From: Oryzias latipes
Taxonomy: Eukaryota; Chordata; Actinopteri; Beloniformes; Adrianichthyidae
Direction of reading: 5' to 3'
DNA: 64,000 nucleotides
Assembly (NCBI RefSeq): GCF_002234675.1
Contig: NC_019867.2
Location: forward strand, 4,048,001-4,112,000
Shown here: positions 14,236 through 53,436 of the stretch, piece by piece
How positions within the stretch are numbered: position 1 is the stretch's first letter
How the letters are laid out: every line of letters starts with the position of its first letter
Notes under the pieces: model-generated
Told to the model about the DNA's origin: nothing
What the model saw: only the letters and a program-made list of their open reading frames with translations
Database searches by the model: none
Position numbers and translations under genes: made by a program

Positions 14236-15504
14236 ATCTTAAAAAGACTGGTTTTAAAGTTTTCCATTGTTCTATGGAAAATCTACGAGTACTTCGCATG
14301 TAACTTCAAACTTGTGCGTCAGTAGATCTTTACTTGAGAATCCAGATATATCTGCATTAATGTTTTAATCTGTGCTTTAGAACTATTGTCAGGGAAATAA
14401 ACTCCGTGTATTTTTAAACCGGTTGAATCCTTGTTTGTTTTACCACTCTCGACTATCGAACACGCATGGATGGAAAGAACTGAAAAACGGACGATTTCTT
14501 TCCTACAATCTATATAGATATACCGGTATATTTGCAATATCTTTTAACTGTTTATTGGTGTTTGTTTCATATTTCCAGTTTCACTGGCATTGGAAAGCTG
14601 GTTATCAGAAAGAAGACTCCATCATCTTATTTGCTGCATGTTTTCCTTTGAATAAAATAAATAAATATACAAATATACAAAAGGTCAGTTTGTACCACAA
14701 CCCAAAAGTGCCTTGAATTCACTCGGCACAAACTGATCACAATTTACACACATTTCACTGAAATCACATTTGGCCCCCATGACAATGTACAGAGCGTACT
14801 GAAAGTCAAAAAGTACATGTTGATATATAGAATACATTTCACATATTGGAATGTCACCTATGCATAATACCATGTATTATCCCGCCCGTCTCTGTTGCTG
14901 TATGATTGTTTGTCTGCACATTCCTTGTACTTACCCCCCCTTCTTCAATCTAAATTTAGCTTTGAGAAAAACATTTTTTTAATAATTTATACTGTGTTTA
15001 ACTCCAACTGGTTCAAAGGGCACATAGTAGTCAAAACTTAAGTATCCTGTAGGTCTATGACATAAATCCAACTTACATCTGGTTTAGGCTGTCATCTTAG
15101 AACATTTAAAAATGACTTGCTTTTTAAAAATTACTTTAAGTTTTTGTTCATAAAAAACGTATTTAAAAAAATAACGTAAAATCAAGTAAGCCTCAGTTAC
15201 CATGGAAACACCAACATCTCCCTGTAAACACAGAAGATTACTGAATAGTGGGTTTTCTGTCATTATAACTGTGAAAATAGGTTTGAGTTAAATAATATGA
15301 AAGAATTTAATGCTGCAATATTTCCAGCCACTAATACAAATAGCCACTCATACAATCTACTCCAAAATAATGTTTATCTACAGCTTCTCTCCTCAGAGAT
15401 TAATGGACAAACACCTTCACATGTTTTCTGTTGCTCAAAGAGCTGCTTCCTATATTCTCAAATGGAAATGCAATCATAAAATATTAGAACAAAGAGTAAA
15501 GGAG
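14236..15504. other. Spacer between GC-rich block and hairpin
   Basis: No gene recognised. The small frames here show no family motif. The sequence is highly conserved among units, including a poly-C run near 14934 whose length varies. Confidence 0.45.
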
Positions 15505-15537
15505 AGAACAACAGGAAATCAAATTTCCTGTTGTTCT
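15505..15537. repeat. Perfect 15-bp inverted repeat (hairpin)
   Basis: AGAACAACAGGAAAT, 3-nt spacer CAA, then ATTTCCTGTTGTTCT. The arms are perfectly complementary. The beta-type units carry the same arms with spacer CAG. It is located about 0.8 kb upstream of the TRIM start; function unknown. Confidence 0.85.
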
Positions 15538-16349
15538 AAAAGCAAAACATGAAAACTTAAAATTAAAGATTTTAAAGGATTATTATTAGGAATTATGTTT
15601 TAAAGAAAACTGTTGTACTTTTTGTAAAAAAAAGGTATTACAAAATTGAGAGTTTGTTTGTTGAAAATGTATTTATGACTAAAAGCCTCTTCAAAGATTT
15701 ATTTCTGACTTTCATCTAAATTTCCAGTCCCTTTTATACTAGATCAAACTATTTAAAAAAAAACTGTTGATACTTTATCAGATTAAGCTTTCAATGATTT
15801 ACAGATGTTGGTAAATTTACATATTAAAAAACAAATATTTTAAAATCAAACCACTTAAGAAGACATAAAATATAACTTTTTTTCTGAGTCACAAGAATTC
15901 ATGAAACACAAATCCCCCAAAAACTCTTTAAATGTGTAGAAGTGATTATAAACAAGATAAAAAGCTGGAATTTTTCTTCACATTAGTTAGTGTACATATT
16001 TGTTAGTGTGACAGTTGTCTTCATGTTCATTTTATTTAAAAATGTGTTGTTTGATACACAGTTTTTGAAGAGGTGAAAAACAATGTAAACAATTAGACTG
16101 CATGAACTGCTGTTTAAATAAAGATTTAACACTTTGAAACATGACGAAGAGAAAAAAACTTGACTCCACCTTTGGTGAGAATGAAGAAATGACATCTGAG
16201 GAAACGGAAAGTTAAATGACTTTGCTGAACTGAACTCAGACGCCACTGAAGGTCTTTAAATCTCTGCTGGAAAAAAAAAAGATTTGTGGAATATTTTCAT
16301 CCTGAACTTCAAGACAGAAGCTGGTGAGTCTGAAAGACTTTGGTTAGAA
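15538..16349. other. TRIM upstream region / probable 5' UTR
   Basis: AT-rich. CTG-GTGAGT at 16321-16328 could be a splice donor of an alternative 5' exon. An in-frame ATG at 16284 precedes the family-typical start but adds 22 residues (WNIFILNF...) not expected in this family. No other gene was recognised. Confidence 0.4.
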
Positions 16350-17768
16350 ATGGCTGAGAGAGCTGCTCTTCTTGAATCCTACCTGAAGTGTCACGTTTGT
16401 TCAGAGACTTTCAATGATCCTGTAACTCTGAGCTGCAACCACAACTTCTGTTCGAGCTGCCTGCAGAAGTTCTGGGAACAAACTCAGAACAAAAACTGTC
16501 CCATCTGTAAAAGTAAATCTTCTAAAGATCATCCTGCTGTGAACCTTTGCCTGAAGGAACTTGCTGACTCGTTTGCTGGAAGACAGAAATCTGAATCATC
16601 AGAGACAAAAACAGGAGAGCAGAAGTTCATGGAGGTCTGCAGGAAACATCCAGGAGAATCCAAACTCTTCTGTAAAGACGAGCAGAGAGCTTTTTGTCCT
16701 TTCTGTGAGTTTTTTCAGCACCAGAGTCACAAAGTGGTTCCTGTAGAAGAAGCAGTCAGAGAGCTGAAGGAGGAGCTGAAATCTGACTTAAAGTCTCTGC
16801 AGGACAAGAAGATCAAATACAAAACAATGGAGAAAACATACAATCAGATGATTCAACACTCCAAGAAGCAGCTGCTGTCCACAGAGACACAGATCAGAGC
16901 AGAGTTCAACAAGCTCCAGCAGTTCCTGAAGGAGGAAGAGGAGTCCAGACTGGCAGCTCTGAGGGAGGAAGAGGAGCAGAAGAGGAAGACTGTGATGGGA
17001 GAGATGAAGAGGATCCAGGAGCAGATGTCCTCTCTGTCAGAAAGTATCAGTGCTGTTGAAGCAGAGCTGCAGAAAGACAAGGAGGCGTTCCTCAGCAGTT
17101 GGAAAGACACTCAGAGCAGAGCCAGAGCCCAGAGCTCGCTGTCAGACCCACAGCTGCTCTCAGGAGCTCTGATAGATGTGGCCAAACATGTGGGCAACCT
17201 GTCCTTCATAGTCTGGGAGAAGATGAAGGAGAAGGTCCACTTCAGCCCGGTCCTCCTGGACCCAAACACTGGAAGCAGATATCTTTATCTCTCTGATGAT
17301 CTGACCAGTGTGAGATTTGGAGAAACTTCTCAGCAGCTTCCTAACAATCCAGAGAGAAACATGTATTTTGTTTCTGTTTTTGGCTCTGAGGGATTCAGAT
17401 CAGGGAAACACAGCTGGGAGGTGGAGGTGGGAGATCATCCTCACTGGAACATTGGTGTGACTAAAGAGTCTGTTAACAGGAAGGGAGAGAGTTCTATTTC
17501 ACCAAAAGATGGAATCTGGTGTTTAGATCTTGAGAATGGAGAATACACAAACGGTGATGGTCAGACTGTCACTGTGACTAAGAGTCTCCAGAAGATCAGA
17601 GTCCAGCTGGACTATGACAGGGGGGAGGTGTCCTTCTACAACCCTGAAGACATGACTCACATCTACACTTACAAAGACACTTTCACTGAGAAACTTTACC
17701 CGTATTTCAATGTTGGAGAATCTGGAGAAGCAAAAACCTCTAAACTCCAAATCTGTCCGACTGATTGA
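16350..17768 (+). CDS. TRIM RING/B-box/PRY-SPRY protein, alpha type, copy 1
   Basis: Single-exon gene of 472 aa, taking the ATG at 16350 (MAERAALLESYLKCHVC), which has a good Kozak context and fits related fish TRIMs. An ATG at 16284 in frame would add 22 aa. The RING is complete C3HC4: C14, C17, C29, H31, C34, C37, C50, C53. The B-box has C97, H100, C108, C116, C119, H124 and H127. A long charged coiled coil covers roughly 135-250, then PRY (SPVLLDPNTGSRYLYLSDD) and SPRY (GKHSWEVEVGDHPHWNIGV ... GEVSFYNPEDM) to the end. It resembles the zinc-binding protein A33 / nuclear factor 7 / TRIM35-like group. The predicted role is E3 ubiquitin ligase with SPRY target recognition; an immune role is inferred. 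A polyadenylation signal is at 17796. Confidence 0.93.
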   Translation: MAERAALLESYLKCHVCSETFNDPVTLSCNHNFCSSCLQKFWEQTQNKNCPICKSKSSKDHPAVNLCLKELADSFAGRQKSESSETKTGEQKFMEVCRKHPGESKLFCKDEQRAFCPFCEFFQHQSHKVVPVEEAVRELKEELKSDLKSLQDKKIKYKTMEKTYNQMIQHSKKQLLSTETQIRAEFNKLQQFLKEEEESRLAALREEEEQKRKTVMGEMKRIQEQMSSLSESISAVEAELQKDKEAFLSSWKDTQSRARAQSSLSDPQLLSGALIDVAKHVGNLSFIVWEKMKEKVHFSPVLLDPNTGSRYLYLSDDLTSVRFGETSQQLPNNPERNMYFVSVFGSEGFRSGKHSWEVEVGDHPHWNIGVTKESVNRKGESSISPKDGIWCLDLENGEYTNGDGQTVTVTKSLQKIRVQLDYDRGEVSFYNPEDMTHIYTYKDTFTEKLYPYFNVGESGEAKTSKLQICPTD

Positions 17769-18574
17769 GATGATTTAACTCTTTTGTCATTAAAAAATAA
17801 AAATTGATCAAACCAATGATCTGATGTTCTTTTAGCAGAAAATTTGTATTTTTGTGTATAAAACCATTAACCCTAAAATATTATTTTAAAACTCTGATTT
17901 GTTCATTTAAAAAATTTGTTCAGATCTTGTGCGTTCCACTCCCAACATTAACGTGGATTGGATTGCAGGAAAGCTGAAATCGCAAATGTTGATTCCATTT
18001 CTGTTTTTCTTTGTTCTTTAGTGTCTCAAATATTTTGTATCTGAATTTGATTTTCACTGCAGCATCTTTAAAATGTTCAATGACAAGTTTCTGATGTTTC
18101 TTTTCAGGTAAATGTGAAGCAGCTGTTAAATCTCCTTCATGAGTCAGAAATCAGGAGCATTTCAGACAAAAACTGTTCAGTTAATGTTTTTCTCAGGTTC
18201 AGGAAGAAGAAACGGATCAGAAGAAGGTTTTTCATGTTGGAAGATGGTTTCAAATAGATTCAAGTGTCTGTGATTTATTTGATTTCTGTCAGAATTTAAA
18301 AGGCTCAAAGTAAAAAAAATGTTTTTTATTGTCTTCACATCAAAGCATAATACTACATTGATTTAAACTTTTAAAAAGTTTTAATGGTAGATATTCTTTA
18401 AGCAGCTTTACTCTTTAGGTCTTTTTGTAATTGAATTGTTGAATTTTTGAATTAACCCACCTCCATGATCAAAATATGAAATGAATTAAATGAGGAGAGC
18501 AATAATATGATGAACACACATTTGACCTGAATTCATTTTTTTTAAATAAATACAATCAGAAAATTGTTATTTTA
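17769..18574. other. TRIM 3' UTR and spacer before TE cassette
   Basis: AATAAA at 17796-17801 follows the stop by about 28 bp. The remainder is AT-rich and non-coding up to the TA at 18573-18574, where the IS630/Tc1-type element begins. Confidence 0.5.
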
Positions 18575-20463
18575 CAGTTTTTCTCCATTGGTTTGGCTCA
18601 TTTCTTGAAACAGAAATACATTCTCAAAACAACATGGACAAACCTCCAAACCACTCTGCAATTGTTCACAACAGAATGGCATTTCTCATTAGTTTCATCA
18701 AATTGCAAATGTCTTAGTACAAGTCTCAATGTCTCAGTACATCTTTAAAATGATGAAGTACAAGTAGCCTTCATTTAGCACAGATTCCATGAATAGATCT
18801 TGTTGATCTAAACTGATTGTTGATTCTCAGTCTAATGGTTGTTTGCTCCAAAATGAGTCAGCATCATTTCATTGTGTAAGTCATCACATGCACAATAGTC
18901 TGTTCAGTTGTCTAAATCAATCAAGAACATAATACCATGAATACGATATATGAATCACTTGGAACATTTGATACATTTATTACAGCAATTGACAGTCAGG
19001 TGAAACTAGAACTTGACTAACGAAGGAGGATGTCCCAGGCCAGCGAGGGGGCAATATAATTATGTGTGCTGCCATATCTGAGAATGGTGTGGCCACTCAC
19101 ATCACCAGGCTTGGCCCATACAATACACAGAAAATCCTCATCTTCTTTGACCGCCTTCATTTTGATTTGATCCCTGGAACTGAGAGAGGTCTCTTAGGGC
19201 CTCACCTACCACTATATGTTATTGTATGGGAATATGTGAATTTCCACCATGGCCCGCCCATCAGGGCCTGGTTCACTACTCATCCAAGGATGTTCATAGT
19301 GTTCCTACCACCTTACTCTCCTTTTCTCAATCCTATTCAGAAGTTTTTCTCCGCTTGAAGGTGGAGAGTGTATGAACATCGAGCTCAAGATCAGAGGTCC
19401 CTGCTCTTTGCAATAGATGCTGTGTGGGATAATTTTACAGAAGATCAGTGTAGGGGATGGTTGCCATATGCACACCGTTGTTTCCCTCGTTGCATCACAA
19501 GGGAAAAAATACGCTGTGATGTGGACAAGAATCTGTGGCCAGACAGACAGCAGCGTGTGGACGGCCAGCAGGGTGAGGACAATGGCCAGGACAGGGAGGG
19601 TGATGGGAGGGTGAGGACAGCGACCAGTAAAGAACTGTTGGTTGTGAAATTTTTTACAGCACTGTAGGCTGCATATCATTTTCATTGTTTTTTGTTTGTG
19701 TTTAAATTAAGAAGTATATTATGCTGTATACATTTACCATTTACTCTGATGTATGAAAGTTACTTTATGTGTGTGAATGATAATGGTTACAATTTCCTTG
19801 GCAGTATGAATGCAATGTGTACTGTTTCTGTAAACCTAAGAGGCTACTCTTACCCTAAAATCCTTTTTATTTTTTTCAGTTTTGTACAAAATTGTATTCT
19901 GTTAGCTATACAAAACCAGTACAGTTACCATTGTCAATAAAGGACTGAGCTACAACTGAAAGGTGGACATGAGGGATATTTCAATGGTCCTCTGCTAAAG
20001 TGACAAAACATCTAATCATTTTGACTTGAGGTGCTTACACAATGCCAAAGGGACAAAGTATTTTGGGGGCACTGACTGTTTAAATGAGAAGAAAATTTAG
20101 TTTTGACACATGAGTGAATTGTTCTGGGAGAGAAATGGCTTTTGCAGGTGAACCGTGGTGTTGTGCCGAACCATCCACATTATTTTGGCAAAAGCACCAA
20201 GAGTGCTGAGAATGTCCGGTCTGATCAAGAAATGAGCCAAAGCAATTGAGAAGGATCTTTGCCATTTTGGTGGCACTCACTCTTAACATGGGAAAGGAAT
20301 TTAGTTTTGAAGCACGAGTGAACAGTTTTGAAAGATATATTAGATTTTGCAAGTGAGTTTTTGTGTTGTGCTAAACTGTAATACTGTTTTGCCAAATGAC
20401 CTTAGAGTTTTGAGAATGTAATTTCTGTTTCAAGAAATGAGCCAAACCAAAGGAGAAAAACTG
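18575..20463 (+). mobile_element. IS630/Tc1-type transposon, near full length, defective
   Basis: About 1.9 kb, bounded by inverted repeats of about 56 bp (CAGTTTTTCTCC ... GGAGAAAAACTG) with one mismatch and one indel, and flanked by TA on both sides, as expected for this superfamily. A transposase remnant lies at 19032-19667. The 3' arm holds two degenerate repeats of about 170 bp (about 20094-20254 and 20298-20463), each with a version of CAAGAAATGAGCCAAA. The same insertion is present in other units, so it was in the ancestral module. Confidence 0.85.
19032..19667 (+). pseudogene. DDE transposase C-terminal remnant (IS630/Tc1 type)
   Basis: Reads VPGQRGGNIIMCAAISENG, then LYVIVWEYVNFHHGPP and FLPPYSPFLNPIQKFFSA, then after an in-frame TGA RWRVYEHRAQDQRSL and CRGWLPYAHRCFPRCI. 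These are the blocks of a DDE_3-type transposase. The TGA stands where homologues have Trp (SAWRWKVY). The expected Asp in VWDN is Glu, and the expected Glu in NPIE is Gln. It is therefore non-functional. The same TGA is in the copies at 35499 and 49184. Confidence 0.8.
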
Positions 20464-21176
20464 TAAGCGGGATGCTCACGATCTTTGAACTTGTGCAGAA
20501 GATGGATACCAACTTGGAGCGTATTTCTGCCCGAATTGAGGCAAGACTGGTCTAAATTGCCCACTTTTTGGATCAAATCTGCCTCGAATAGCTGTACCAG
20601 CCAAGGACACAGCCGGCAGAGCAAACAACCTGTTGGCGCCGAGAAAAATTTAATCTAATCAGACCCCCCCTCTGTGCTGAGGACTTCTGTCCTTGGCTCC
20701 AAGAAAACAAGATATTCGCTTCCAGAGTGTGAAGACCGCTGTTGTGTTGAAGGTTGATGCTGCGACCTCGGTGCCGCCCCCCCACTGTGAACACTGCCTG
20801 AGAGGCGCCGATCCGTGGCTGCCCTCGGAGTGTATCACTGAGCCCCCCCCCTAACTACCTCCCTCGTGTACTGTGTGTCGTGTGAATATGTGCTTCTGTG
20901 TTTGGACGGTGTACTTTTTTTCTTGTATCTACACATTGTAACAACAGTGTTGAGATACGACCTTTTTTCTATCACCAATGACCCAGACCCTCCCCATTGG
21001 TGACCCATCTACACCCATCCTAGTAAGGCAGCACATTTATTGCTGCAGCCTCAGCCAACTCTGAACTGTATATGTGTATCTGTTGTATGTCTGATCTTGT
21101 TCAGGTTGTACTGGAACTAATTTCGTATGTCGGTGTAAAGCTGTGCATATGACAGTAAATGAATTCTGATTCTGAT
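20464..21176 (+). repeat. Retroposon R (copy R2)
   Basis: Same element as 911-1638. It is joined directly to the right inverted repeat of the transposon (ACTGTAAGCGGGATGC). It has shorter poly-C tracts than R1 and a single-step TTCTGA tail. Confidence 0.6.
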
Positions 21177-21519
21177 TATTTACAGCACTGTAGGCTGCAC
21201 ATCATTGTCATAGTTTTTTGTTTGTGTTTAAATTATAAAGTATATTATGCTGTAAACATTTTCTTTTTATTCTGATGTATGAAAGTTACTTTATGTGTGT
21301 GAATGATAATGGTTAGAATTTCCTCGGCAGTATGAGTGCAATGTTTGCTGTTACTGTAAACCTAAGAGGCTTCCATTACCCTAAAATCCTTTTTCTTTTT
21401 TTCAGTTTTTTACAAAATTGTATTCTGTTAGCTATACAAAAACAGTACAGTGACCATTGTCAATAAAGGACTGAGCTACAACTGAAAGATGGACATGAGG
21501 GATATTTCAATGGTCCTCT
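21177..21519 (+). mobile_element. Second copy of IS630/Tc1 3' region
   Basis: Repeats the 3' region already present at 19660-19990 (TTTACAGCACTGTAGGCTGC onward), up to the L2 insertion at GGTCCTCT. A second 3' region after a complete right end shows that the cassette was rearranged by duplication. Confidence 0.65.
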
Positions 21520-22245
21520 TACCATTGAAAGTGCCAAAATCAAAAACATAGTGTCAAAGCCAGACCTGGAGATACTTATTCATGCATTTGTCTCCAGTAG
21601 GTTAGACTACTGTAACGGCCTGCTCACCGGCCTCTCCAAACGAGCTGTAAAACAGCTTCAGTACATCCAGAATGCTGCTGCTCGAGTCCTGACCAGAACC
21701 AGGAAGTATGATCACATTAGTCCTGTGCTCAGGTCTCTGCACTGGCTCCCTGTACCTCAAAGAATAGACTTCAAAGCAGCTGTGCTTGTGTACAAGTCTC
21801 TCCATGGCCGAGCACCAAAGTACATCTCTGACATGTTAGTGCCATATGAACCATCTCGTACTCTGAGGACCTCAGGGACCGGCCTCCTGTTGATTCCCAG
21901 AGTCAGAACTAAACAAGGGGAATCAGCGTTTCAATATTCTGCAGCTAAAATCTGGAACAGCCTCCCTGAAGTCGTAAGACAGGCCTCTTCTGTGTTCATG
22001 TTCAAATCTAGACTTAAAACATTTCTGTTTAGCCGTGTATATGACTGAAAAGTCCTATCTGCACTTTTCTTTCCTTTCCTTCCTTTATTTTAAATCAATT
22101 TTCAACATTTTTCTTTTCTTTTAAAGTAAATTTTACGTTGATTATTTCTATGATGTATTGTGATTTTAATGCATTTTTCTGTTTTGTGAAGCACCTTGAA
22201 TTACTTTGTGTATGAATTGTGCTATACAAATAAACTTGCCTTGCC
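21520..22245 (+). mobile_element. L2-type LINE 3' fragment
   Basis: Same insertion as 1980-2710, with the same C-terminal RT frame (21551-22048, 165 aa) differing at a few residues (HAFVSS for DAFVSS, PQRID for PQRRD). The tail TTGCC repeats and the CCTCT flanks are conserved. Confidence 0.85.
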
Positions 22246-22690
22246 TCTGCTATAGTGACAAAACATCTAATCATTTTGACTTGCAGTGCTTACACAATGC
22301 CAAAGGGATGAAGGATTTTGGGGGCACTGACTGTTTAAATGAGAAGAAAATTTAGTTTTGACACATGAGTGAATTGTTCTGGGAGAGAAATGGCTTTTCA
22401 GGTGAACCATGGTGTTGTGCCGAACCATCCACATTATTTTGGCAAAAGCACCAAGAGTGCTGAGAACGTCCGGTCTGATCAAGAAATGAGCCAAAGCAAT
22501 TGAGAAGGATCTTTGCCATTTTGGTGGCACTCACTCTTTACATGGGAAAGGAATTTAGTTTTGAAGCATGAGTGAACAGTTTTAAGAGATATATTAGATT
22601 TTGCAAGTGAGCTATTGTGTTGTGCTAAACTGTAAGACTGTTTTGCCAAATGACCTTAGAATTTTGAGAATGTAATTTCTGTTTCAAGAA
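22246..22690 (+). mobile_element. IS630/Tc1 3' arm, terminal repeat deleted
   Basis: Continues after the L2 but stops at TTTCAAGAA and jumps to GACAGCAGCCATGG, losing the final inverted repeat and the first CTCF-like motif. The short shared GAA/GAC bases suggest microhomology deletion. Confidence 0.65.
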
Positions 22691-23199
22691 GACAGCAGCC
22701 ATGGAGCATTTTCTAGTTTTCTAAATAAATTTCAACATAAAACCTTTTTCATGGTTAACAGCCATGAAAAAGAAAATAAACAGAAATGAATCAATTCTGT
22801 TTGTATGTTAGAAAATGTAATATCAATTTTTTTTAAATGCCCCAATGTTGTTCAATTTCAAGTTCCATTATTTGTCACACACCTAGGTGTGCGAAATTTG
22901 TTTCGCGCATTTGACCCATCCCCTGGGGAGTGGGGAGCTGCAGATGAGCCGCGCTTGGGAGGCAGCAGCGTTAAGGGTCTTGCCCAGCAGTTCTACATGA
23001 TCTTTTCTTGATTTGAAAAAACTTTATCAAAATCTGGATGAGATTCTTGTGTTTGCATTACTGGGACAGTACAACATGTAAATAAAAAAGACAATGTTTA
23101 GTCACTCTTCTTTTTTGTTAAATAAATTCTCATTTTATTTTCCTTTAGCCAGAGGGCCACAATGGAAGGCCAGCTCCTCAGGTCACACAAATGTAAAAT
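22691..23199. other. Intergenic, repeat-like, no gene seen
   Basis: Colinear with 3255-3700, including the dispersed-repeat-like GC-rich island near 22915-22990. No exon recognised. Confidence 0.45.
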
Positions 23200-23505
23200 T
23201 TAGACTTTTTGATCATCTATCTGTCAAAATCTGCACCAAAACACCCAAACAGTGAGTAAAACAGTAAATGTTCTACATCTAAGAGCTAAAAACCACTTCA
23301 GTTGGTGTGTTGAAGGTTTGTTTGGGTGACGTTTGGCTTCTTTTCTTTCAGTATGATCCATTTCAAGTTTTGGGCTGTCAAGACAGACTTTCATTGACTC
23401 TAATAACTTCTGATGCACAGAACAGCTTGTGATTGACTCAGTCCACATTATTACACTTCCACCACTGTGTTTTACTGATAGAAATTCAAACATTAACAGG
23501 CCAGC
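23200..23505 (-). pseudogene. Decayed Tc1-type transposase fragment
   Basis: Minus-strand frame with SVKHSGGSVIMW, matching the Tc1 block VKHGGGSVMVWG, followed by degenerate sequence. Base insertions relative to 39670-39972 (GTTTGGGTGACG versus GTTGGTGACG, TTTTGGGC versus TTTTGGC) change the frame and look like sequencing errors. Confidence 0.5.
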
Positions 23506-24149
23506 ACAAGCTTCTTGTTAAGAATCTAATACTGAAAGCTGTTAAAACCTTCCTGCATCTGGATGTGATATATTTTGCCAGCATAATTTTACAATGTTTA
23601 ATCATCTGCCACTTTTCAGCTTGTGTTGTTCCAGTGTTCAACCTTCTGTGTTTGTCTTAGCATCATTCTTGGTATGCAAACGCTTCACCCTAAAGAGGAA
23701 TTATCAGTAAAATATGTGAGAAACTAAGAAAGAGTTCAGCTTATTATATAAAATCCCATAAAAAATTAACATTAACTTTACCTGGATTAAATAATTTTTA
23801 ATGAATACAATCAGGAACTTTAAATGAGAAATCTCTATCCTCTTGAATGCAGTACATTGAGCTACCACTAGAGGGCATCAGACAGCAATCCTTTGACTGC
23901 AGTTATGGATCTTTTTCGATTTTTTCAAAATAACCGTCATCATTAGATTTTTTGGATGTTTAAGAGAGCCGAAAATAATTTATTCTTTTTTTAAGCAATT
24001 TTGGGAAAACAAGGCAGAAAAAAATGGTATAACTTCCCACATTGCAGATGATAATTTTATCACCAATCTAAAAGAAATTTCACTAAACATTTGTAAATAT
24101 TACCAACATTTATGTTCTTTAAATAAAGTTTTTCTTTAATGTTATAAAA
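23506..24149. other. Intergenic spacer
   Basis: Colinear with 4011-4690. It holds CCACTAGAGGGCAT (23865-23878), a diverged form of the CTCF-like motif. No gene seen. Confidence 0.45.
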
Positions 24150-24617
24150 GCCTTCATCCCTCAAATTCATTTAGATTTCAGAAGAGAAATTGATAAAGAC
24201 ATGAATATTTTAGAACTTGATCATGTTATCCATAGACTAAAGGGAAATCTCCTGGTCAGGCTGGTCTGACTTCAAACTTCTGCAGGTTTTTCTGGAAAGC
24301 TCTTAGAGAGTTCCTATTTGAAGCTTTAAAGAAATGTTTGCTGAATAAAACACTTTTGAAAACAATGAAAAAGAATGATAATATTAATACCAAAACCAAA
24401 CAAAGACAAATATCTTATTAACAACTTAAGTCCAATAACTTTATTAAATGTTGATTATAAATGATTCACTCACGTTTTAGCTAACAGACTGAAAAAGTGG
24501 TTCAACAGTCAGTTGTAATAAGTGAAACTCAATCTGGTTTCCTTCCAGTTAATCCACAATAACATTTGTTTAGTCCGAGATTTATTAGATTATGGAAGAT
24601 TAATTGAAGACAATTTT
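24150..24617 (+). pseudogene. Decayed L1-like RT fragment, right end deleted
   Basis: Same fragment as 4740-5198 with extra frame breaks. It stops at GAAGACAA and passes through an A/T run into TTTTAGCCTTCACCG, which corresponds to about 7298 in copy A. The deletion removed the two N-terminal ERAP1-like exons and the decayed exon. Confidence 0.6.
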
Positions 24618-24896
24618 TAAAAAAATTTCAAATTTTTAGCCTTCACCGTATTCATTAAATCTGATTTAAAGTTACAATGTGAAGCTTCTCAGCGCGTTTG
24701 ATGCATTTTGATCTTGAGGGATGTGGACTGATCGGCAGAAGTGGTATTCGGGGGATGAGCTGGATGTCAGGGCCATCATGGACACCTGGACGCTGCAGGA
24801 GGGCTTCCCGCTGGTCACCGTGGAGGTCAAAGGGCGGGAGGTCAGGGTGAGTCAGGAGCGGTTCCTTAGGACGGACAACCCCTCCCTCACTGAAGG

Positions 24897-27362: not shown

Positions 27363-27440
27363 TATTCTTTATTATGTTACAGCTTTATCCTTAGTGTGAA
27401 GTATTCTTTATTATGTTACAGCTTTATCCTTAGTGTGAAG
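27363..27440 (+). repeat. 39-bp perfect tandem duplication
   Basis: Same pair of 39-bp repeats as 13685-13762. Confidence 0.88.
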
Positions 27441-36930: not shown

Positions 36931-37643
36931 TAAGCGGGATGCTCACGATCTTTGAACTTGTGCAGAAGATGGATACCAACTTGGAGCGTATTTCTGCCCG
37001 AATTGAGGCAAGACTGGTCTAAATTGCCCACTTTTTGGATCAAATCTGCCTCGAATAGCTGTACCAGCCAAGGACACAGCCGGCAGAGCAAACAACCTGT
37101 TGGCGCCGAGAAAAATTTAATCTAATCAGACCCCCCCTCTGTGCTGAGGACTTCTGTCCTTGGCTCCAAGAAAACAAGATATTCGCTTCCAGAGTGTGAA
37201 GACCGCTGTTGTGTTGAAGGTTGATGCTGCGACCTCGGTGCCGCCCCCCCACTGTGAACACTGCCTGAGAGGCGCCGATCCGTGGCTGCCCTCGGAGTGT
37301 ATCACTGAGCCCCCCCCTAACTACCTCCCTCGTGTACTGTGTGTCGTGTGAATATGTGCTTCTGTGTTTGGACGGTGTACTTTTTTTCTTGTATCTACAC
37401 ATTGTAACAACAGTGTTGAGATACGACCTTTTTTCTATCACCAATGACCCAGACCCTCCCCATTGGTGACCCATCTACACCCATCCTAGTAAGGCAGCAC
37501 ATTTATTGCTGCAGCCTCAGCCAACTCTGAACTGTATATGTGTATCTGTTGTATGTCTGATCTTGTTCAGGTTGTACTGGAACTAATTTCGTATGTCGGT
37601 GTAAAGCTGTGCATATGACAGTAAATGAATTCTGATTCTGATT
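36931..37643 (+). repeat. Retroposon R
   Basis: Same copy type as 20464-21176, differing in poly-C length near 37310. Confidence 0.6.
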
Positions 37644-37985
37644 ATTTACAGCACTGTAGGCTGCACATCATTGTCATAGTTTTTTGTTTGTGTTTAAATT
37701 ATAAAGTATATTATGCTGTAAACATTTTCTTTTTATTCTGATGTATGAAAGTTACTTTATGTGTGTGAATGATAATGGTTAGAATTTCCTCGGCAGTATG
37801 AGTGCAATGTTTGCTGTTACTGTAAACCTAAGAGGCTTCCATTACCCTAAAATCCTTTTTCTTTTTTTCAGTTTTTTACAAAATTGTATTCTGTTAGCTA
37901 TACAAAAACAGTACAGTGACCATTGTCAATAAAGGACTGAGCTACAACTGAAAGATGGACATGAGGGATATTTCAATGGTCCTCT
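37644..37985 (+). mobile_element. Second copy of IS630/Tc1 3' region
   Basis: Equal to 21177-21519. Confidence 0.62.
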
Positions 37986-38711
37986 TACCATTGAAAGTGC
38001 CAAAATCAAAAACATAGTGTCAAAGCCAGACCTGGAGATACTTATTCATGCATTTGTCTCCAGTAGGTTAGACTACTGTAACGGCCTGCTCACCGGCCTC
38101 TCCAAACGAGCTGTAAAACAGCTTCAGTACATCCAGAATGCTGCTGCTCGAGTCCTGACCAGAACCAGGAAGTATGATCACATTAGTCCTGTGCTCAGGT
38201 CTCTGCACTGGCTCCCTGTACCTCAAAGAATAGACTTCAAAGCAGCTGTGCTTGTGTACAAGTCTCTCCATGGCCGAGCACCAAAGTACATCTCTGACAT
38301 GTTAGTGCCATATGAACCATCTCGTACTCTGAGGACCTCAGGGACCGGCCTCCTGTTGATTCCCAGAGTCAGAACTAAACAAGGGGAATCAGCGTTTCAA
38401 TATTCTGCAGCTAAAATCTGGAACAGCCTCCCTGAAGTCGTAAGACAGGCCTCTTCTGTGTTCATGTTCAAATCTAGACTTAAAACATTTCTGTTTAGCC
38501 GTGTATATGACTGAAAAGTCCTATCTGCACTTTTCTTTCCTTTCCTTCCTTTATTTTTAAATCAATTTTCAACATTTTTCTTTTCTTTTAAAGTAAATTT
38601 TACGTTGATTATTTCTATGATGTATTGTGATTTTAATGCATTTTTCTGTTTTGTGAAGCACCTTGAATTACTTTGTGTATGAATTGTGCTATACAAATAA
38701 ACTTGCCTTGC
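37986..38711 (+). mobile_element. L2-type LINE 3' fragment
   Basis: Same insertion as 21520-22245. The 165-aa C-terminal RT frame is at 38017-38514 and matches that copy. Confidence 0.85.
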
Positions 38712-39156
38712 CTCTGCTATAGTGACAAAACATCTAATCATTTTGACTTGCAGTGCTTACACAATGCCAAAGGGATGAAGGATTTTGGGGGCACTGACTG
38801 TTTAAATGAGAAGAAAATTTAGTTTTGACACATGAGTGAATTGTTCTGGGAGAGAAATGGCTTTTCAGGTGAACCATGGTGTTGTGCCGAACCATCCACA
38901 TTATTTTGGCAAAAGCACCAAGAGTGCTGAGAACGTCCGGTCTGATCAAGAAATGAGCCAAAGCAATTGAGAAGGATCTTTGCCATTTTGGTGGCACTCA
39001 CTCTTTACATGGGAAAGGAATTTAGTTTTGAAGCATGAGTGAACAGTTTTAAGAGATATATTAGATTTTGCAAGTGAGCTATTGTGTTGTGCTAAACTGT
39101 AAGACTGTTTTGCCAAATGACCTTAGAATTTTGAGAATGTAATTTCTGTTTCAAGA
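38712..39156 (+). mobile_element. IS630/Tc1 3' arm, terminal repeat deleted
   Basis: Equal to 22246-22690, with the same deletion junction TTTCAAGAA-GACAGCAGCC. Confidence 0.65.
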
Positions 39157-40616
39157 AGACAGCAGCCATGGAGCATTTTCTAGTTTTCTAAATAAATTTC
39201 AACATAAAACCTTTTTCATGGTTAACAGCCATGAAAAAGAAAATAAACAGAAATGAATCAATTCTGTTTGTATGTTAGAAAATGTAATATCAATTTTTTT
39301 TAAATGCCCCAATGTTGTTCAATTTCAAGTTCCATTATTTGTCACACACCTAGGTGTGCGAAATTTGTTTCGCGCATTTGACCCATCCCCTGGGGGAGTG
39401 GGGAGCTGCAGATGAGCCGCGCTTGGGAGGCAGCAGCGTTAAGGGTCTTGCCCAGCAGTTCTACATGATCTTTTCTTGATTTGAAAAAACTTTATCAAAA
39501 TCTGGATGAGATTCTTGTGTTTGCATTACTGGGACAGTACAACATGTAAATAAAAAAAGACAATGTTTAGTCACTCTTCTTTTTTTGTTAAATAAATTCT
39601 CATTTTATTTTCCTTTAGCCAGAGGGCCACAATGGAAGGCCAGCTCCTCAGGTCACACAAATGTAAAATTTAGACTTTTTGATCATCTATCTGTCAAAAT
39701 CTGCACCAAAACACCCAAACAGTGAGTAAAACAGTAAATGTTCTACATCTAAGAGCTAAAAACCACTTCAGTTGGTGTGTTGAAGGTTTGTTGGTGACGT
39801 TTGGCTTCTTTTCTTTCAGTATGATCCATTTCAAGTTTTGGCTGTCAAGACAGACTTTCATTGACTCTAATAACTTCTGATGCACAGAACAGCTTGTGAT
39901 TGACTCAGTCCACATTATTACACTTCCACCACTGTGTTTTACTGATAGAAATTCAAACATTAACAGGCCAGCACAAGCTTCTTGTTAAGAATCTAATACT
40001 GAAAGCTGTTAAAACCTTCCTGCATCTGGATGTGATATATTTTGCCAGCATAATTTTACAATGTTTAATCATCTGCCACTTTTCAGCTTGTGTTGTTCCA
40101 GTGTTCAACCTTCTGTGTTTGTCTTAGCATCATTCTTTGGTATGCAAACGCTTCACCCTAAAGAGGAATTATCAGTAAAATATGTGAGAAACTAAGAAAG
40201 AGTTCAGCTTATTATATAAAATCCCATAAAAAATTAACATTAACTTTACCTGGATTAAATAATTTTTAATGAATACAATCAGGAACTTTAAATGAGAAAT
40301 CTCTATCCTCTTGAATGCAGTACATTGAGCTACCACTAGAGGGCATCAGACAGCAATCCTTTGACTGCAGTTATGGATCTTTTTCGATTTTTTCAAAATA
40401 ACCGTCATCATTAGATTTTTTGGATGTTTAAGAGAGCCGAAAATAATTTATTCTTTTTTTAAGCAATTTTGGGAAAACAAGGCAGAAAAAAATGGTATAA
40501 CTTCCCACATTGCAGATGATAATTTTATCACCAATCTAAAAGAAATTTCACTAAACATTTGTAAATATTACCAACATTTATGTTCTTTAAATAAAGTTTT
40601 TCTTTAATGTTATAAA
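39157..40616. other. Intergenic spacer with decayed Tc1 fragment
   Basis: Equal to 22691-24149. It includes the minus-strand Tc1 remnant (SVKHSGGSVIMW) at about 39670-39972. No host gene seen. Confidence 0.45.
39670..39972 (-). pseudogene. Decayed Tc1-type transposase fragment
   Basis: Minus-strand SVKHSGGSVIMW and downstream degenerate blocks; same remnant as at 23200-23505 without the extra G bases. Confidence 0.5.
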
Positions 40617-41085
40617 AGCCTTCATCCCTCAAATTCATTTAGATTTCAGAAGAGAAATTGATAAAGACATGAATATTTTAGAACTTGATCATGTTATCCA
40701 TAGACTAAAGGGAAATCTCCTGGTCAGGCTGGTCTGACTTCAAACTTCTGCAGGTTTTTCTGGAAAGCTCTTAGAGAGTTCCTATTTGAAGCTTTAAAGA
40801 AATGTTTGCTGAATAAAACACTTTTGAAAACAATGAAAAAGAATGATAATATTAATACCAAAACCAAACAAAGACAAATATCTTATTAACAACTTAAGTC
40901 CAATAACTTTATTAAATGTTGATTATAAATGATTCACTCACGTTTTAGCTAACAGACTGAAAAAGTGGTTCAACAGTCAGTTGTAATAAGTGAAACTCAA
41001 TCTGGTTTCCTTCCAGTTAATCCACAATAACATTTGTTTAGTCCGAGATTTATTAGATTATGGAAGATTAATTGAAGACAATTTT
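40617..41085 (+). pseudogene. Decayed L1-like RT fragment, right end deleted
   Basis: Same as 24150-24617, with the same deletion junction after GAAGACAA. Confidence 0.6.
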
Positions 41086-41206
41086 TAAAAAAATTTCAAA
41101 TTTTTAGCCTTCACCGTATTCATTAAATCTGATTTAAAGTTACAATGTGAAGCTTCTCAGCGCGTTTGATGCATTTTGATCTTGAGGGATGTGGACTGAT
41201 CGGCAG

Positions 41207-42758
41207 AAGTGGTATTCGGGGGATGAGCTGGATGTCAGGGCCATCATGGACACCTGGACGCTGCAGGAGGGCTTCCCGCTGGTCACCGTGGAGGTCAAAG
41301 GGCGGGAGGTCAGGGTGAGTCAGGAGCGGTTCCTTAGGACGGACAACCCCTCCCTCACTGAAGGGTAATAAACCCATACGTCACTCCTCAATACATCCCT
41401 TTTCCTTTTTTTATTTCCTAAAGCCATAACAACAGCAGCTATAAAAGTAGAAACATTCTGGCCCACATAGCTAATATTTTCCCTGCATGTGACCGTTTTT
41501 TCTTTGAATGATTAAAAATGAAAAATCAAAAATTGTCAGGGAAATCCTCACAGCATGAGTGAAAAAGGCCATCTGTCAATCATTTCTGCTGGAGCTAAAA
41601 TGAAGGAGAGCAGACGTGAGGAAGCTCAAGTGCAGATCTGTAACCTCGGCAGGAGCTCTGAACTGGAAAATTGAACAAGATTGGAAGAGACGTTCAGAAA
41701 AACATCAGAAAATGGACTGAAACACTGTGAGGCTGTAAACGATCAGATTTCTTTTCAATTTCATGTAAATTTGTCCACATTCCAAAGTACCGCAGTAGGA
41801 TTTCTCAACCATTGTTTTGGCGGTGTCACATAGTGCATCTGTTCACCTGCAGGATGTTTTTTCCTGGTTTGTTTGTGTGAATCAAAATTGGAGTTATGCA
41901 AAATCAGAAAAGGAGCAAAAACTTTTTTTTTTTATTCGTGTGAATAAATCCTCATATTTCAACAGTATTTTCATATCCTGTCGTTAAAATTATTAGCCAG
42001 TGTATATCATAGTACCTCATGGTATTTCCTCACATAAGTGTATAAAAGCATGCAGTGTTTGCATGAAACCACAATAGCAAAATAGCTTTCATGAGTAGAA
42101 TAAAAAGAGAGAAAGTTGTTTATGGTTTGCCTGATTTTCTGGTAGCAGGACACCTCGGTTAGAATCCCGCCTGGACCCTTTCTGTGTGGAGTTTGCATCT
42201 TCTTCTAGTGCACGTATCTCTGATTAGTGCCTCTAAATTAGAAAACTAGAATGGGCTCCAGCAATCAGTCCTAGCCAGGATGGAACAGGATAATCAACGG
42301 ATGGGCTAAACCTAAAAACCAACTCAGTGCTGCTGTTTTCTCCAAAGAGGAGGTCAAGTTTGGAGTTAAATTCAATGCATTAACATTCTTCTGTGTTTAA
42401 CTGCAGGTTTGACCTGGGATCCAGCACTATATCCCACTTGGTAGCCGGAGTAACCAACCAGTACTCCACCAGAGAGATGCTTCACGAGGTCAGAGATCAT
42501 TTCAGGCCACTTTTGCTAGAGGACCTGGCAGATCTAATACTTTTGTGTTGGTGTGTTTTTTGTTTATTGCTGTGCTCTTGCGTTCAGATACGAAGCTTCT
42601 TCGACTCCCTGACAGAGGAGGCGGGTTCTCAGATGAGGTGCATCCAGCAGAGCTACGAGACCATCGAGGACAACATCCGCTGGATGGACAGGAACCTTCC
42701 TCTGCTGCAGGCCTGGCTGAACAAACATGGCAGCAGAAACCACCATCAGGAGTTATGA
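41207..42758 (+). pseudogene. erap1: ERAP1-like remnant, three exons, copy C
   Basis: Exons 41207-41364, 42407-42488 and 42588-42758. It carries the same deletions as copy B but the penultimate exon has the normal 82 bp, so its frame into the last exon is intact. The first exon holds the new GGTGAGT found in B. Lacking the N-terminal, catalytic and most C-terminal exons, it cannot make an aminopeptidase. It is probably the same locus as copy B, read with fewer errors on the far side of the gap. Confidence 0.85.
42115..42305 (+). repeat. Old tRNA-type SINE fragment
   Basis: Same SINE as 12024-12213, in the intron before the penultimate exon. Confidence 0.6.
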
Positions 42759-43827
42759 GGGGGGGTTAAGGGGTCACAGAAGCCAAAACAGAAGCAGGTC
42801 GATGATAGAATTTCTATATTTTTACTTGATGAAAAAGGTTTTACCTGATGTATTTTTTTTGAACGGGAACTAAAGTATGAAAATTAATTTATGCCAATGG
42901 AAAGGTTTAGGGGTTTTGACAAATTTAAAAAGGAATTATTGCATAATTTAAATACATTTTAAGTGCATACGATTGTAGCTTAATTGGATTAAAGATTTTA
43001 ATTTTTTGTGATGTATTTTAGGCACAAATTTGGGACCTGGACACTTTTTCTAAGATTGATCCTGATGTGTTTCTGTGGGTTTGTGTTAACGGTAGGTTTT
43101 GCTGTGGGGGGTTATGTTCAACAGCACTGACGTCTGAATTTCTGTGATTTTTGTTTTTATTGCACTATTTTTTTAATGCTACAAAAATTGTAAATAAAAA
43201 AAAGACTTTATTCAAAGCAGATAATTGATATTTCTGAAATATTCAGTATCAGATCATGTTTGTGATCAGTTTATCAAAGATAAAGTTTCAAACTTGATTG
43301 AAAATATTATAATTACGTTTTAGTTAGATTTTAAATGAGATACTACCTTAAGTTGAAGTAAAAATAGTTTATAATTGCAGAAAATGATGTAAAAATGTAT
43401 TATTTATAGTCATAAAGCTTTATCAAAATGTCCTAAGTTCCCTCATGAGTTAAAAAAAGACATCAAAGATAAACATTTTCTTTAAATTATAAAAATAAAA
43501 CATTGTTTTATATTGGATTAAGGAAAAACATAAAACTATGACAGGTTTTTTTTAGGATTTATTTTTCTGTGTGTTTTCAGTTTTTAGTTTTCTAATTTTG
43601 GGTTTTTTGTTACCTGTAGGCCATAATCAACAAACCTAAAAGTAATAAAGACTTGATTGATTCAAAACTGTGTGTATTATTTTTTATTAAATCAACGTTT
43701 CTCTTTTTAAATTCACTAAATGAAATTGTTTTTAAATGTATTTGCTCCATCTTATCTGAAAGTGTGAATAACATTTTTATATATTTGCAGATCATATATA
43801 TTGTAGAAAATGTATGTTTTAATATCT
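42759..43827. other. Downstream spacer of remnant C
   Basis: Equal to 26294-27362; no gene seen. Confidence 0.45.
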
Positions 43828-43905
43828 TATTCTTTATTATGTTACAGCTTTATCCTTAGTGTGAAGTATTCTTTATTATGTTACAGCTTTATCCTTAGTG
43901 TGAAG
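43828..43905 (+). repeat. 39-bp perfect tandem duplication
   Basis: Same pair as 13685-13762. Confidence 0.88.
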
Positions 43906-44183
43906 TGAACTTATTTTGAACTATCCAGATTTATGGTCGTGTGACATTCCTTTTTGCTTTATGGTTGCAGCATCCTGTGAAGAAGCAGGATGTTCTTTGT
44001 GCAAACTTAGGTGTTTTTCATAGGTGCAATAAATATGCCATGGGCGATATCCGTACCATCTGGGTTGAAGATTCTTCCCCTGAAAGTGTGAAGATTCGTG
44101 TTCTCATGTGGAGGTTGGAGATGACCTTTGCTCTGGACACCGGTAAAAGGAACCTTGAGTTGTCCAGGAATGATTTACTCTGA

Positions 44184-44378
44184 CCAGATGGGGACTCTTT
44201 TGATCATCGGACCGTGTGCGCCGGTCAAACGGGCCCCCGGGAGGTGGAGCGGATCCGAAGCTGGCAATCGTCAGCTATTGGCCAGAGGAAGCAGGCGGGC
44301 TATCAGCTGACGAATCAGAGCGACCAGGGGCGGAGATCCAGCGACCATGATCTTTCCGGAAGACGGAGATTCAAACAC
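44184..44378 (+). promoter_or_regulatory. GC-rich block upstream of TRIM-beta
   Basis: Counterpart of 14041-14235 with inverted CCAAT, GC box and ETS-like site; beta-type variants as at 27721. Confidence 0.4.
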
Positions 44379-46506
44379 ATCTTAAAAAGACTGGTTTTAA
44401 AGTTTTCCATTGTTCTTAGGAAAATCTACGAGTACTTCGCATGTAACTTCAAACTTGTGCGTCAGTAGATCTTTACTTGAGAATCCAGATATATCTGCAT
44501 TAATGTTTTAATCTGTGCTTTAGAACTATTGTCAGGGAAATAAACTCCGTGTATTTTTAAACCGGTTGAATCCTTGTTTGTTTTACCACTCTCGACTATC
44601 GAACACGCATGGATGAAAGAACTGAAAAACGGACGATTTCTTTCCTACAATTTATATAGATATACCGGTATATTTGCAATATCTTTTAACTGTTTATTGG
44701 TGTTTGTTTCATATTTCCAGTTTCACTGGCATTGGAAAGCTGGTTATCAGAAAGAAGACTCCATCATCTTATTTGCTGCATGTTTTCCTTTGAATAAATA
44801 AATAAATATACAAATATACAAAAAAAATATACAAAAGGTCAGTTTGTACCATAACCCAAAAGTGCCTTGAATTCACTCGGCACAAACTGATCACAATTTA
44901 CACACATTTCACTGAAATCACATTTGGCCCCCATGACAATGTACAGAGCGTACTGAAAGTCAAAAAGTACATGTTGATATATAGAATACATTTCACATAT
45001 TGGAATGTCACCTATGCATAATACCATGTATTATCCCGCCCGTCTCTGTTGCTGTATGATTGTTTGTCTGCACATTCCTTGTACTTACCCCCCCCCCCCC
45101 CTTCTTCAATCTAAATTTATCTTTGAGAATATTTTTTTTAAAATAATTTATACAGTGTTTAATTCCAACTGGTTAAAAGGGCACATAGTAGTCAAAACTT
45201 AAGTATCCTGTAGGTCTATGACATAAATCCAACTTACATCTGGTTTAGGCTGTCATCTTAGAACATTTAAAAATGACTTGCTTTTTAAAAATTACTTTAA
45301 GTTTTTGTTCATAAAAAACGTATTTAAAAAAATAACGTAAAATCAAGTAATCCTCAGTTACCATGGAAACACCAACATCTCCCTGTAAACACAGAAGATT
45401 ACTGAATAGTGGGTTTTCTGTCATTATAACTGTGAAAATAGGTTTGAGTTAAATAATATGAAAGAATTTAATGCTGCAATATTTCCAGCCACTAATACAA
45501 ATAGCCACTCGTACAATCTACTCTAAAATAATGTTAATCTACAGCTTCTCTCCTCAGAGATTAATGGACAAACACCTTCACATGTTTTCTGTTGCTCAAA
45601 GAGCTGCTTCCTATATTCTCAAATGGAAATGCAATCATAAAATATTAGAACAAAGAGTAAAGGAGAGAACAACAGGAAATCAGATTTCCTGTTGTTCTAA
45701 AAGAAAAACATGAAAACTTAAAATTACAAGATTTTAAAGGATTATTAGGAATTATGTTTTAAAGAAAACTGTTGTACTTTTTGTGAAAAAGGTATTACAA
45801 TATTGAGAGTTTGTTTGTTGAAAATGTATTTATGCCTAAAAGCCTCTTCAAAGATTTTTATTTCTGACTTTCATCTAAATTTCCAGTCCCTTTTATACTA
45901 GATCAAACTATTTTTAAAAAACTGTTGATACTTTATCAGATTAAGCTTTCAATGATTTACAGATGTTGATAAATTTTCATATTAAAAAACAAATATTTTA
46001 AAATCAAACCACTTATGAAGACATAAAATATTACTTTTTTTCTGAGTCACAAGAATTCATGAAACACAAATCCCCCAAAAACTCTTTAAATGTGTAGAAG
46101 TGTTTATAAACAAGATAAAAAGCTGGAATTTTTCTTCACATTAGTTAGTGTACATATTTGTTAGTGTGACAGTTGTCTTCATGTTTATTTTATTTAAAAA
46201 TGTGTTGTTTGATACACAGTTTTTGAAGAGGTGAAAAACAATGTAAACATTTAGACTGCATGAACTGTTTTTAAATAAAGATTTAACACTTTGAAACATG
46301 ACGAAGACAAAAAAAACTTGACTCCACCTTTGGTGAGAATGAAGAAATGACATCTGAGGAAACGGAAAGTTAAATGACTTTGCTGAACTGAACTCAGACG
46401 CCACTGAAGGTCTTTAAATCTCTGCAGGAAAAACAAAGATTTGTGGAATATTTTCATCCTGAACTTCAAGACAGAAGCTGGTGAGTCTGAAAGACTTTGG
46501 TCAGAA
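44379..46506. other. Spacer upstream of TRIM-beta
   Basis: Colinear with 14236-16349. It contains the hairpin at 45666-45698 and a variable poly-C run near 45089. No gene seen. Confidence 0.45.
45666..45698. repeat. Perfect 15-bp inverted repeat (hairpin)
   Basis: Same arms as 15505-15537, spacer CAG. Confidence 0.85.
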
Positions 46507-47925
46507 ATGGCTGAGAGAGCTGCTCTTCTTGAATCCTACCTGAAGTGTCACGTTTGTTCAGAGACTTTCAATGATCCTGTAACTCTGAGCTGCAACCACA
46601 ACATCTGTTGGAGCTGCCTGCAGAAGTTCTGGGAACAAACTCAGAACAAAAACTGTCCCATCTGTAAAAGAAAATCTTCTAAAGATCATCCTGCTGTGAA
46701 CCTTTGCCTGAAGGAACTTGCTGACTCGTTTGCTGGAAGACAGAAATCTGAATCATCAGAGACAAAAACAGGAGAGCAGAAGTTCATGGAGGTCTGCAGG
46801 AAACATCCAGGAGAATCCAAACTGTTCTGTAAAGACGAGCAGAGAGCTTTTTGTCCTGTCTGTGAGTTTTCTCAGCACCAGAGTCACAAAGTGGTTCCTG
46901 TAGAAGAAGCAGTCAGAGAGCTGAAGGAGGAGCTGAAATCTGACTTAAAGTCTCTGCAGGACAAGAAGATCAAATACAAAACAATGGAGAAAACATACAA
47001 TCAGATGATTCAACACTCCAAGAAGCAGCTGCTGTGCACAGAGACACAGATCAGAGCAGAGTTCAACAAGCTCCAGCAGTTCCTGAAGGAGGAAGAGGAG
47101 TCCAGACTGGCAGCTCTGAGGGAGGAAGAGGAGCAGAAGAGGAAGACTGTGATGGGAGAGATGAAGAGGATCCAGGAGCAGATGTCCTCTCTGTCAGAAA
47201 GTATCAGTGCTGTTGAAGCAGAGCTGCAGAAAGACAAGGAGGCGTTCCTCAGCAGTTGGAAAGACACTCAGAGCAGAGCCAGAGCCCAGAGCTCGCTGTC
47301 AGACCCACAGCTGCTCTCAGGAGCTCTGATAGATGTGGCCAAACATGTGGGCAACCTGTCCTTCAGAGTCTGGGAGAAGATGAAGGAGAAGGTCCACTTC
47401 AGTCCGGTCCTCCTGGACCCAAACTCTGCAAGCAGATATCTTTATCTGTCTGATGATCTGACCAGTGTGAGATTTGGAGAAACTTCTCAGCAGCTTCCTA
47501 ACAATCCAGAGAGAAACATGTATTTTGTTTCTGTTTTTGGCTCTGAGGGATTCAGATCAGGGAAACACAGCTGGGAGGTGGAGGTGGGAGATCATCCTCA
47601 CTGGAACATTGGTGTGACTAAAGAGTCTGTTAAGAGGAAGGGAGAGAGTTCTATTTCACCAAAAGATGGAATCTGGTGTTTAGATCTTGAGAATGGAAAA
47701 TACACAAACGGTGATGGTCAGACTGTCACTGTGACCAAGAGTCTCCAGAAGATCAGAGTCCAGCTGGACTATGACAGGGGGGAGGTGTCCTTCTACAACC
47801 CTGAAGACATGACTCACATCTACACTTACAAAGACACTTTCACTGAGAAACTTTACCCGTATTTCAATATTGGAGAATCTGGAGACGCAAAAACCTCTAA
47901 ACTCCAAATCTGTCCGACTGATTGA
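46507..47925 (+). CDS. TRIM RING/B-box/PRY-SPRY protein, beta type
   Basis: Single-exon 472-aa paralogue of the alpha gene. All RING (C14, C17, C29, H31, C34, C37, C50, C53) and B-box metal ligands are kept. It differs from alpha by roughly 14 residues, clustered in the RING loop (F33I, S35W, S55R), the B-box (F118V, F122S) and the PRY-SPRY half (NTGSR to NSASR, VNRKG to VKRKG, NGEYT to NGKYT, NVGESGE to NIGESGD). The central coiled coil is nearly invariant. It is a predicted E3 ubiquitin ligase with a SPRY recognition domain. An upstream in-frame ATG at 46441 would add 22 aa; I prefer 46507 from family comparison and Kozak context. Confidence 0.92.
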   Translation: MAERAALLESYLKCHVCSETFNDPVTLSCNHNICWSCLQKFWEQTQNKNCPICKRKSSKDHPAVNLCLKELADSFAGRQKSESSETKTGEQKFMEVCRKHPGESKLFCKDEQRAFCPVCEFSQHQSHKVVPVEEAVRELKEELKSDLKSLQDKKIKYKTMEKTYNQMIQHSKKQLLCTETQIRAEFNKLQQFLKEEEESRLAALREEEEQKRKTVMGEMKRIQEQMSSLSESISAVEAELQKDKEAFLSSWKDTQSRARAQSSLSDPQLLSGALIDVAKHVGNLSFRVWEKMKEKVHFSPVLLDPNSASRYLYLSDDLTSVRFGETSQQLPNNPERNMYFVSVFGSEGFRSGKHSWEVEVGDHPHWNIGVTKESVKRKGESSISPKDGIWCLDLENGKYTNGDGQTVTVTKSLQKIRVQLDYDRGEVSFYNPEDMTHIYTYKDTFTEKLYPYFNIGESGDAKTSKLQICPTD

Positions 47926-53424: not shown

Positions 53425-53436
53425 TTTGATTCTCAG

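Follow-up and report, generated by a model that had tools for sequence, protein, structure and literature searches.

Among the false duplications described for genome assemblies, the homotype kind, in which the suffix of one contig is also the prefix of the next and the copies stand on one scaffold with a gap between them, is described for FALCON in PMC8081667, where one example is put down to a FALCON bug. Heterotype duplication, in which the copies are two haplotypes of one locus, is given in PMC9516828 as the main source of false duplications, and a gap between the copies and reduced depth are named there among the primary marks. Here, a window of 64,000 nt from Oryzias latipes (GCF_002234675.1, NC_019867.2, positions 4,048,001–4,112,000) was analysed, which contains two nearly identical blocks, referred to below as copies A and B, on either side of a run of N. 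Each copy holds a TRIM gene (TRIM-alpha), an aminopeptidase remnant and the start of a second TRIM gene (TRIM-beta). On the evidence of the sequence, the two copies are very probably one 15.46 kb locus written twice through contig ends that were left unmerged.

The wider region analysed comprised 204 kb, consisting of the window with 40 kb of left and 100 kb of right flank. Medaka has 24 chromosomes, giving 25 sequences with the mitochondrion. The assembly of the window appears to be the inbred medaka Hd-rR assembly of PMC5705604, from which the fixed-gap convention, the assembler and the inbred status of the strain are taken. According to the assembly description in that paper, three inbred medaka strains were assembled; the Hd-rR assembly of about 734 Mb, with 733.5 Mb of anchored contigs and 491 gaps, was built from FALCON contigs polished with Quiver and Pilon, and fixed gaps of 1 kbp were placed between neighbouring contigs. 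The libraries had 20 kb inserts and a size cut-off of 15 kb, with a mean Hd-rR subread of 6.5 kb.

Correspondence of the two copies across the gap

The sole N run of the window was exactly 1000 bases long, as would follow from the fixed inter-contig gaps of the likely assembly (PMC5705604), and no further N run was found in the 204 kb region. Copies A and B corresponded end to end and both abutted this run, so that the near-identical colinear blocks ending at the gap that the first-pass annotation had reported were recovered in full. The longest self-match in the window, 14589–30052 against 31055–46519, had an identity of 99.77 %. Base-by-base alignment of all of A to all of B gave 5 substitutions and 29 indels, one of each falling in the first two bases of contig 2. 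When the ragged first ten bases were set aside, 4 substitutions and 28 indels remained over 15,439 aligned bases; all counts below refer to this set. Single-base indels had been described as frequent, and they made up 23 of the 28; the five indels named earlier were all present in the alignment (22925, 23323 with the two bases TG, 23372, 25338 and 26020). Over the 5,842 bases from 14999 to 20840, which contain the entire TRIM-alpha gene, the copies did not differ at all.

The uniqueness of the block in the genome rests on two probes, 20000–21000 and 25300–26100. For the first, of 1,001 bases of A, the matches listed were headed by A and B, followed by a best further copy at 96 %; the second, of 801 bases, was covered in full at A and B only. 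Among the literature titles in the matches listed, none concerned this locus or false duplications in the medaka reference.

The geometry of a contig tail matching the next contig head is weak evidence in itself, because a gapped tandem array allows the head of contig 2 to align to the tail of contig 1 if the two fall in homologous units. The 204 kb region is truly such an array, with units composed of a single-exon TRIM gene and an M1 aminopeptidase gene (of the ERAP/IRAP kind) or remnant. The dovetail as sole proof was accordingly rejected, since any gapped tandem array can yield one. Being equally expected from an unmerged overlap and from a broken real array, the geometry leaves the decision to the kind and polarity of the differences. 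Besides the dovetail, what was computed here is the spectrum of errors and, for most of the scorable differences, their polarity.

Kind, polarity and position of the differences

For comparison, 18 segment pairs with neither member in A or B were picked from the self-matches of the array. All 18 had more substitutions than indels, at 3.0 to 12.7 per indel, with a total of 1,092 against 150; several pairs share segments and are not independent, so the summed counts are descriptive. A real duplication would be expected to follow the other array pairs in this respect, at 3 to 13 substitutions per indel, whereas the A/B ratio was 4:28 (0.14 substitutions per indel), and Fisher p values for A/B against each single pair ranged from 3e-5 to 3e-17. 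Among the other long pairs compared, 2418–13351 and 50642–61575 were the least diverged, with 12 substitutions in 10,930 bases. A short young pair, 43495–45862 and 61631–64000, had 4 substitutions and 1 indel, a ratio that differs from that of A/B with p 0.005. The other array pairs compared had at least 3 substitutions each, whereas in A/B none lies beyond a single noisy stretch of A and the ragged start of contig 2.

To determine polarity, the 28 indels were scored against the remaining 204 kb array with A and B masked. Copy B had been said to agree usually with the other units, and this was upheld: 17 indels were private to A, with paralogues matching B only, 1 was private to B, 4 were mixed (20843, 23084, 23111 and 28624) and 6, all within 25433–25591, had no paralogue for scoring. 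The division of 17 of the 18 one-sided indels to A has a binomial p of 1.4e-4, and the only B-private indel, at 14994, is situated 407 bases into contig 2. A real duplication would be expected to leave private changes on each of its copies, but the split was 17 to 1, besides the mixed and unscored cases. Scoring within the window only had given 17 B-like, 4 A-like, 1 split and 6 without paralogue; in the wider array, 23084 and 23111 changed from A to split, 28624 from B to split and 29369 from A to B. All four substitutions matched the paralogues in their B form, three of them when scored in the wider array and the fourth when scored within the window, although with indels nearby these scores are not independent.

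The same asymmetry was seen when each copy was compared with the array copy at 60–64 kb. The substitution to indel counts for the head of TRIM-beta were 3 to 4 with A and 4 to 1 with B, and those for the end of the remnant were 21 to 8 with A and 13 to 2 with B. Pairs richer in indels with A than with B are expected if A is the noisy copy. The indel-heavy spectrum and the A-private polarity together suggest that the A/B differences are consensus errors, in keeping with a false duplication, in which the differences would be sequencing errors rather than allele or paralogue changes.

Most of the differences (21 of the 28 indels and 4 of the 4 substitutions) fell within two clusters of 0.8 kb, 4–7 kb ahead of the end of contig 1. 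The second cluster has 15 indels inside 800 bases, a density reached in 0 of 2000 random placements, and the four substitutions all lie at 25647–25788, that is, in one noisy stretch of A within this cluster. The last 3.9 kb of A showed 4 indels relative to B. Noise increasing toward the contig end was therefore rejected in favour of two separate patches, and of the earlier suggestion of noisy consensus near a contig end, the consensus noise was retained and the proximity to the end was not.

A count of homopolymer indels had also been proposed. By script, 18 of the 23 single-base indels were run-length changes, two of these from one base to two; the indel at 25500, one of the five that the script scored as other, is a run-length change in the alignment and becomes the nineteenth of 23. 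The single-base indels are mostly run-length changes, while the idea that every indel sits in a homopolymer was not borne out. About half of all bases sit in runs of at least 2, so the run-length bias is an excess and not a striking one.

Competing explanations

The best reading is a homotype dovetail duplication at a contig boundary, as described in PMC8081667. Under this reading the assembler would have stopped contig 1 inside the array, and contig 2 would have begun further back on the same path, by roughly the length of one long corrected read. The overlap would never have been merged, the contigs being set side by side with the fixed 1000-N spacer, in place of which the true gap would be negative, at about -15.46 kb. 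Consensus errors, mostly in A, would account for what differs between the copies, with a concentration in two patches that polishing left uncleaned, perhaps through low coverage or ambiguous mapping of short reads; both this cause of the patchy noise and the assembler step that produced the overlap are ones we infer. The overlap of 15.46 kb stands beside the 20 kb inserts, 15 kb cut-off and 6.5 kb mean subread of PMC5705604. The lack of substitutions outside the noisy stretch and the ragged first bases, the predominance of single-base indels that are mostly private to A where polarity can be scored, and the fixed placeholder gap in what appears to be a FALCON assembly of an inbred strain support the unmerged contig suffix and prefix that the first-pass annotation had put forward.

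A real tandem duplication of about 16–30 kb that arose very recently, its junction having fallen into the gap and its copy A having been badly polished, is very improbable, and we give as little credence to an array truly holding two TRIM-alpha units so freshly copied, or so fully converted, that no credible base difference remains over 15 kb. Several observations nevertheless weigh on that side. The array is a true tandem one in which other young pairs look like real duplications (12 substitutions in 10.9 kb and 4 in 2.4 kb), beside which a still younger one is not absurd, and by substitution rate alone A/B is only moderately below the 10.9 kb pair (Fisher p 0.009). The confinement of errors to A would be equally expected if A were a real, badly polished copy, and so leaves room for a second one. 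At 23084 and 23111, four of five array copies side with A and the fifth (111299, 111327) with B, this copy at about 111.3 kb belonging to the unit most similar to that part of A/B (about 98 %); at 28624, a C run, three of four side with A. These three sites count against a simple assignment of all errors to A. From PMC5705604 come two further points, namely that gaps are inferred there generally to exceed fosmid clones in length, which would not hold for this gap, and that the mean subread is well below an overlap of 15.5 kb, though the library cut-off was 15 kb.

Set against a real duplication are the approximately 15.4 kb with no substitution outside the noisy stretch and ragged first bases, and the presence of only N between A and B in place of a junction sequence, though the gap could hide one. 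Moreover, near-identical copies that noisy reads could not separate would probably have been collapsed by the assembler, so that a text written twice is no evidence for two copies. Still less probable is that A and B are two haplotypes of one locus. The same geometry could arise in this way, and PMC9516828 gives such duplications as the main source of false ones; haplotypes would however be expected to differ by substitutions, and the 15,439 bases yielded only 4, short of a haplotype level and all confined to a noise cluster. Provided that the assembly is Hd-rR (PMC5705604), its origin in an inbred strain also speaks against two haplotypes. On the favoured reading of one locus written twice, a single TRIM-alpha gene and a single aminopeptidase remnant are most likely present here, and the second copy of each should be left out of gene counts, as should the 13-base TRIM-beta stub.

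The tandem array and described false duplications

The features of the duplicated block are listed in Table 1. The TRIM domains (RING, B-box, PRY and SPRY) are from a Pfam scan of two copies, whereas the coiled coil is assumed from the usual TRIM layout and the start codon was picked by inspection. The extra C at 26020 in A breaks the frame of a conserved aminopeptidase exon that is intact in the other 6 of the 7 copies found by motif. A remnant of a DDE transposase was observed at 19017–19355 (Pfam DDE_3), with the same translation at 35484–35822. A repeat of about 470 bases at 20000–20467 occurs at 91–96 % identity on many genome sequences, and the probe 20000–21000 had at least 43 genome matches, a figure that also counts longer array hits and a few short ones. 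A tRNA search with the bacterial code found none.

Table 1. Coordinates in the window of the two copies, the gap and the features they contain
Feature	Coordinates	Strand	Basis
Copy A, tail of contig 1: TRIM-alpha, repeats, aminopeptidase remnant, start of TRIM-beta unit; noisier version	14588..30052	+	alignment to B, polarity scoring
TRIM-alpha, copy A; single-exon RING/B-box/coiled coil/PRY-SPRY	16350..17768	+	open frame; Pfam RING, B-box, PRY, SPRY
Noisy cluster 1 of copy A; 6 indels relative to B	22925..23669	+	alignment, polarity scoring
Aminopeptidase (ERAP/IRAP-like) remnant, copy A; matches unit-1 gene at 7295-8070 and 11984-13351	24633..26974	+	self-match
Noisy cluster 2 of copy A; 15 indels and 4 substitutions relative to B, including frame-shifting extra C at 26020	25305..26092	+	alignment, polarity scoring
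First four codons of TRIM-beta (MAER), at end of contig 1; corresponding to 46507-46519	30040..30052	+	translation
Placeholder gap between the two contigs, exactly 1000 N	30053..31052	.	N-run scan; gap convention of PMC5705604 for the likely assembly
Copy B, head of contig 2; sequence as in A, cleaner version	31053..46519	+	alignment to A, polarity scoring
TRIM-alpha, copy B; identical to copy A across the surrounding 5,842 bases	32817..34235	+	translation, alignment
Aminopeptidase remnant, copy B; exon at 42408 not frame-shifted	41101..43439	+	self-match, open frame
TRIM-beta, complete in contig 2; crosses the end of the overlap	46507..47925	+	open frame, Pfam

With the locus read once, the order in the array is the unit-1 aminopeptidase, TRIM-alpha, the remnant, TRIM-beta, the unit-3 aminopeptidase and the next TRIM unit. 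Among the array self-matches listed above 900 bases, many were at 96–99 %, with older ones down to about 80 % and a few younger. Seven TRIM RING exons were found by motif at window coordinates -3275 to 104561, two of them being the A/B pair; the one at 85871 diverges from the others directly past the motif, in the manner expected of a frame shift. The junction of units 1 and 2 at 13352 is without about 55 bases that are found at 26975–27029 and 61576–61630.

The exons of the unit-1 aminopeptidase gave two Pfam matches to Peptidase_M1_N and two to ERAP1_C, one above and one below the cut-off, and its closest solved relatives were ERAP1 and leucyl-cystinyl aminopeptidase. This gene (5204–12664) retains N- and C-terminal exons, and no M1 catalytic match was found in the 8 open frames between them. 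The zinc-site motif HELAH and the motif GAMEN each occurred once in the 204 kb, both in the copy left of the window (window coordinates -20089, L010, and -19981, L011); a further sequence of the form HE-x-x-H, HEVGH, was found at 151951, away from the array units. The unit-3 aminopeptidase (53430–60889) was assessed by its 99.8 % identity and the motif search. By these motifs, the array may have amplified an aminopeptidase without an active site, a motif split by an intron being one that the search would miss.

The 10.9 kb pair 2418–13351 and 50642–61575 had an identity of 99.82 %, with 12 substitutions, 7 of them in 3658–3806, and 4 indels. Its edges are sharp, with an identity of 94.7 % beyond the left edge and about 97 % beyond the right. 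It was considered as a second false duplication and rejected, since it touches neither contig end at this gap, has substitutions and indels at 12:4 and gives way to more diverged sequence at either edge. Candidate explanations are a tract of recent gene conversion, a recent duplication and the use of one copy's reads in the other.

For the block at the gap, the additional gene copies are most probably artefacts. Should the assembly be the medaka Hd-rR reference, the genome of a model fish would contain one TRIM gene, one aminopeptidase remnant and one truncated TRIM-beta stub too many, and the frame-shifted remnant in A could be misread as a further decayed copy. With the contigs merged, the RING exons found by motif in the 204 kb would decrease from 7 to 6, as would the motif matches of the C-terminal aminopeptidase exon. 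Identical tandem copies would also be expected to make short reads ambiguous, weakening variant calls and expression counts for TRIM-alpha. If there were instead two real TRIM-alpha units, the array would have undergone a fresh expansion of immune genes in an inbred strain, with the assembler showing only its ends.

Compared with the described systems, the locus shares with heterotype false duplication, as presented in PMC9516828, a duplicate on the same scaffold across a gap, but differs in having no haplotype-like substitutions and in coming from an apparently inbred strain. With the homotype false duplication of PMC8081667 it shares a dovetail contig overlap, which may be of about long-read length, a tandem copy with a gap, error-like differences and, if the inferred assembly is right, FALCON contigs. 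Two marks of the homotype kind, a contig suffix equal to the next prefix and a gap between copies on one scaffold, were observed. Unlike the cases described there, the duplication lies within a true tandem array, where it is easily taken for an extra unit, and most of its noise falls into two patches at some distance from the contig end.

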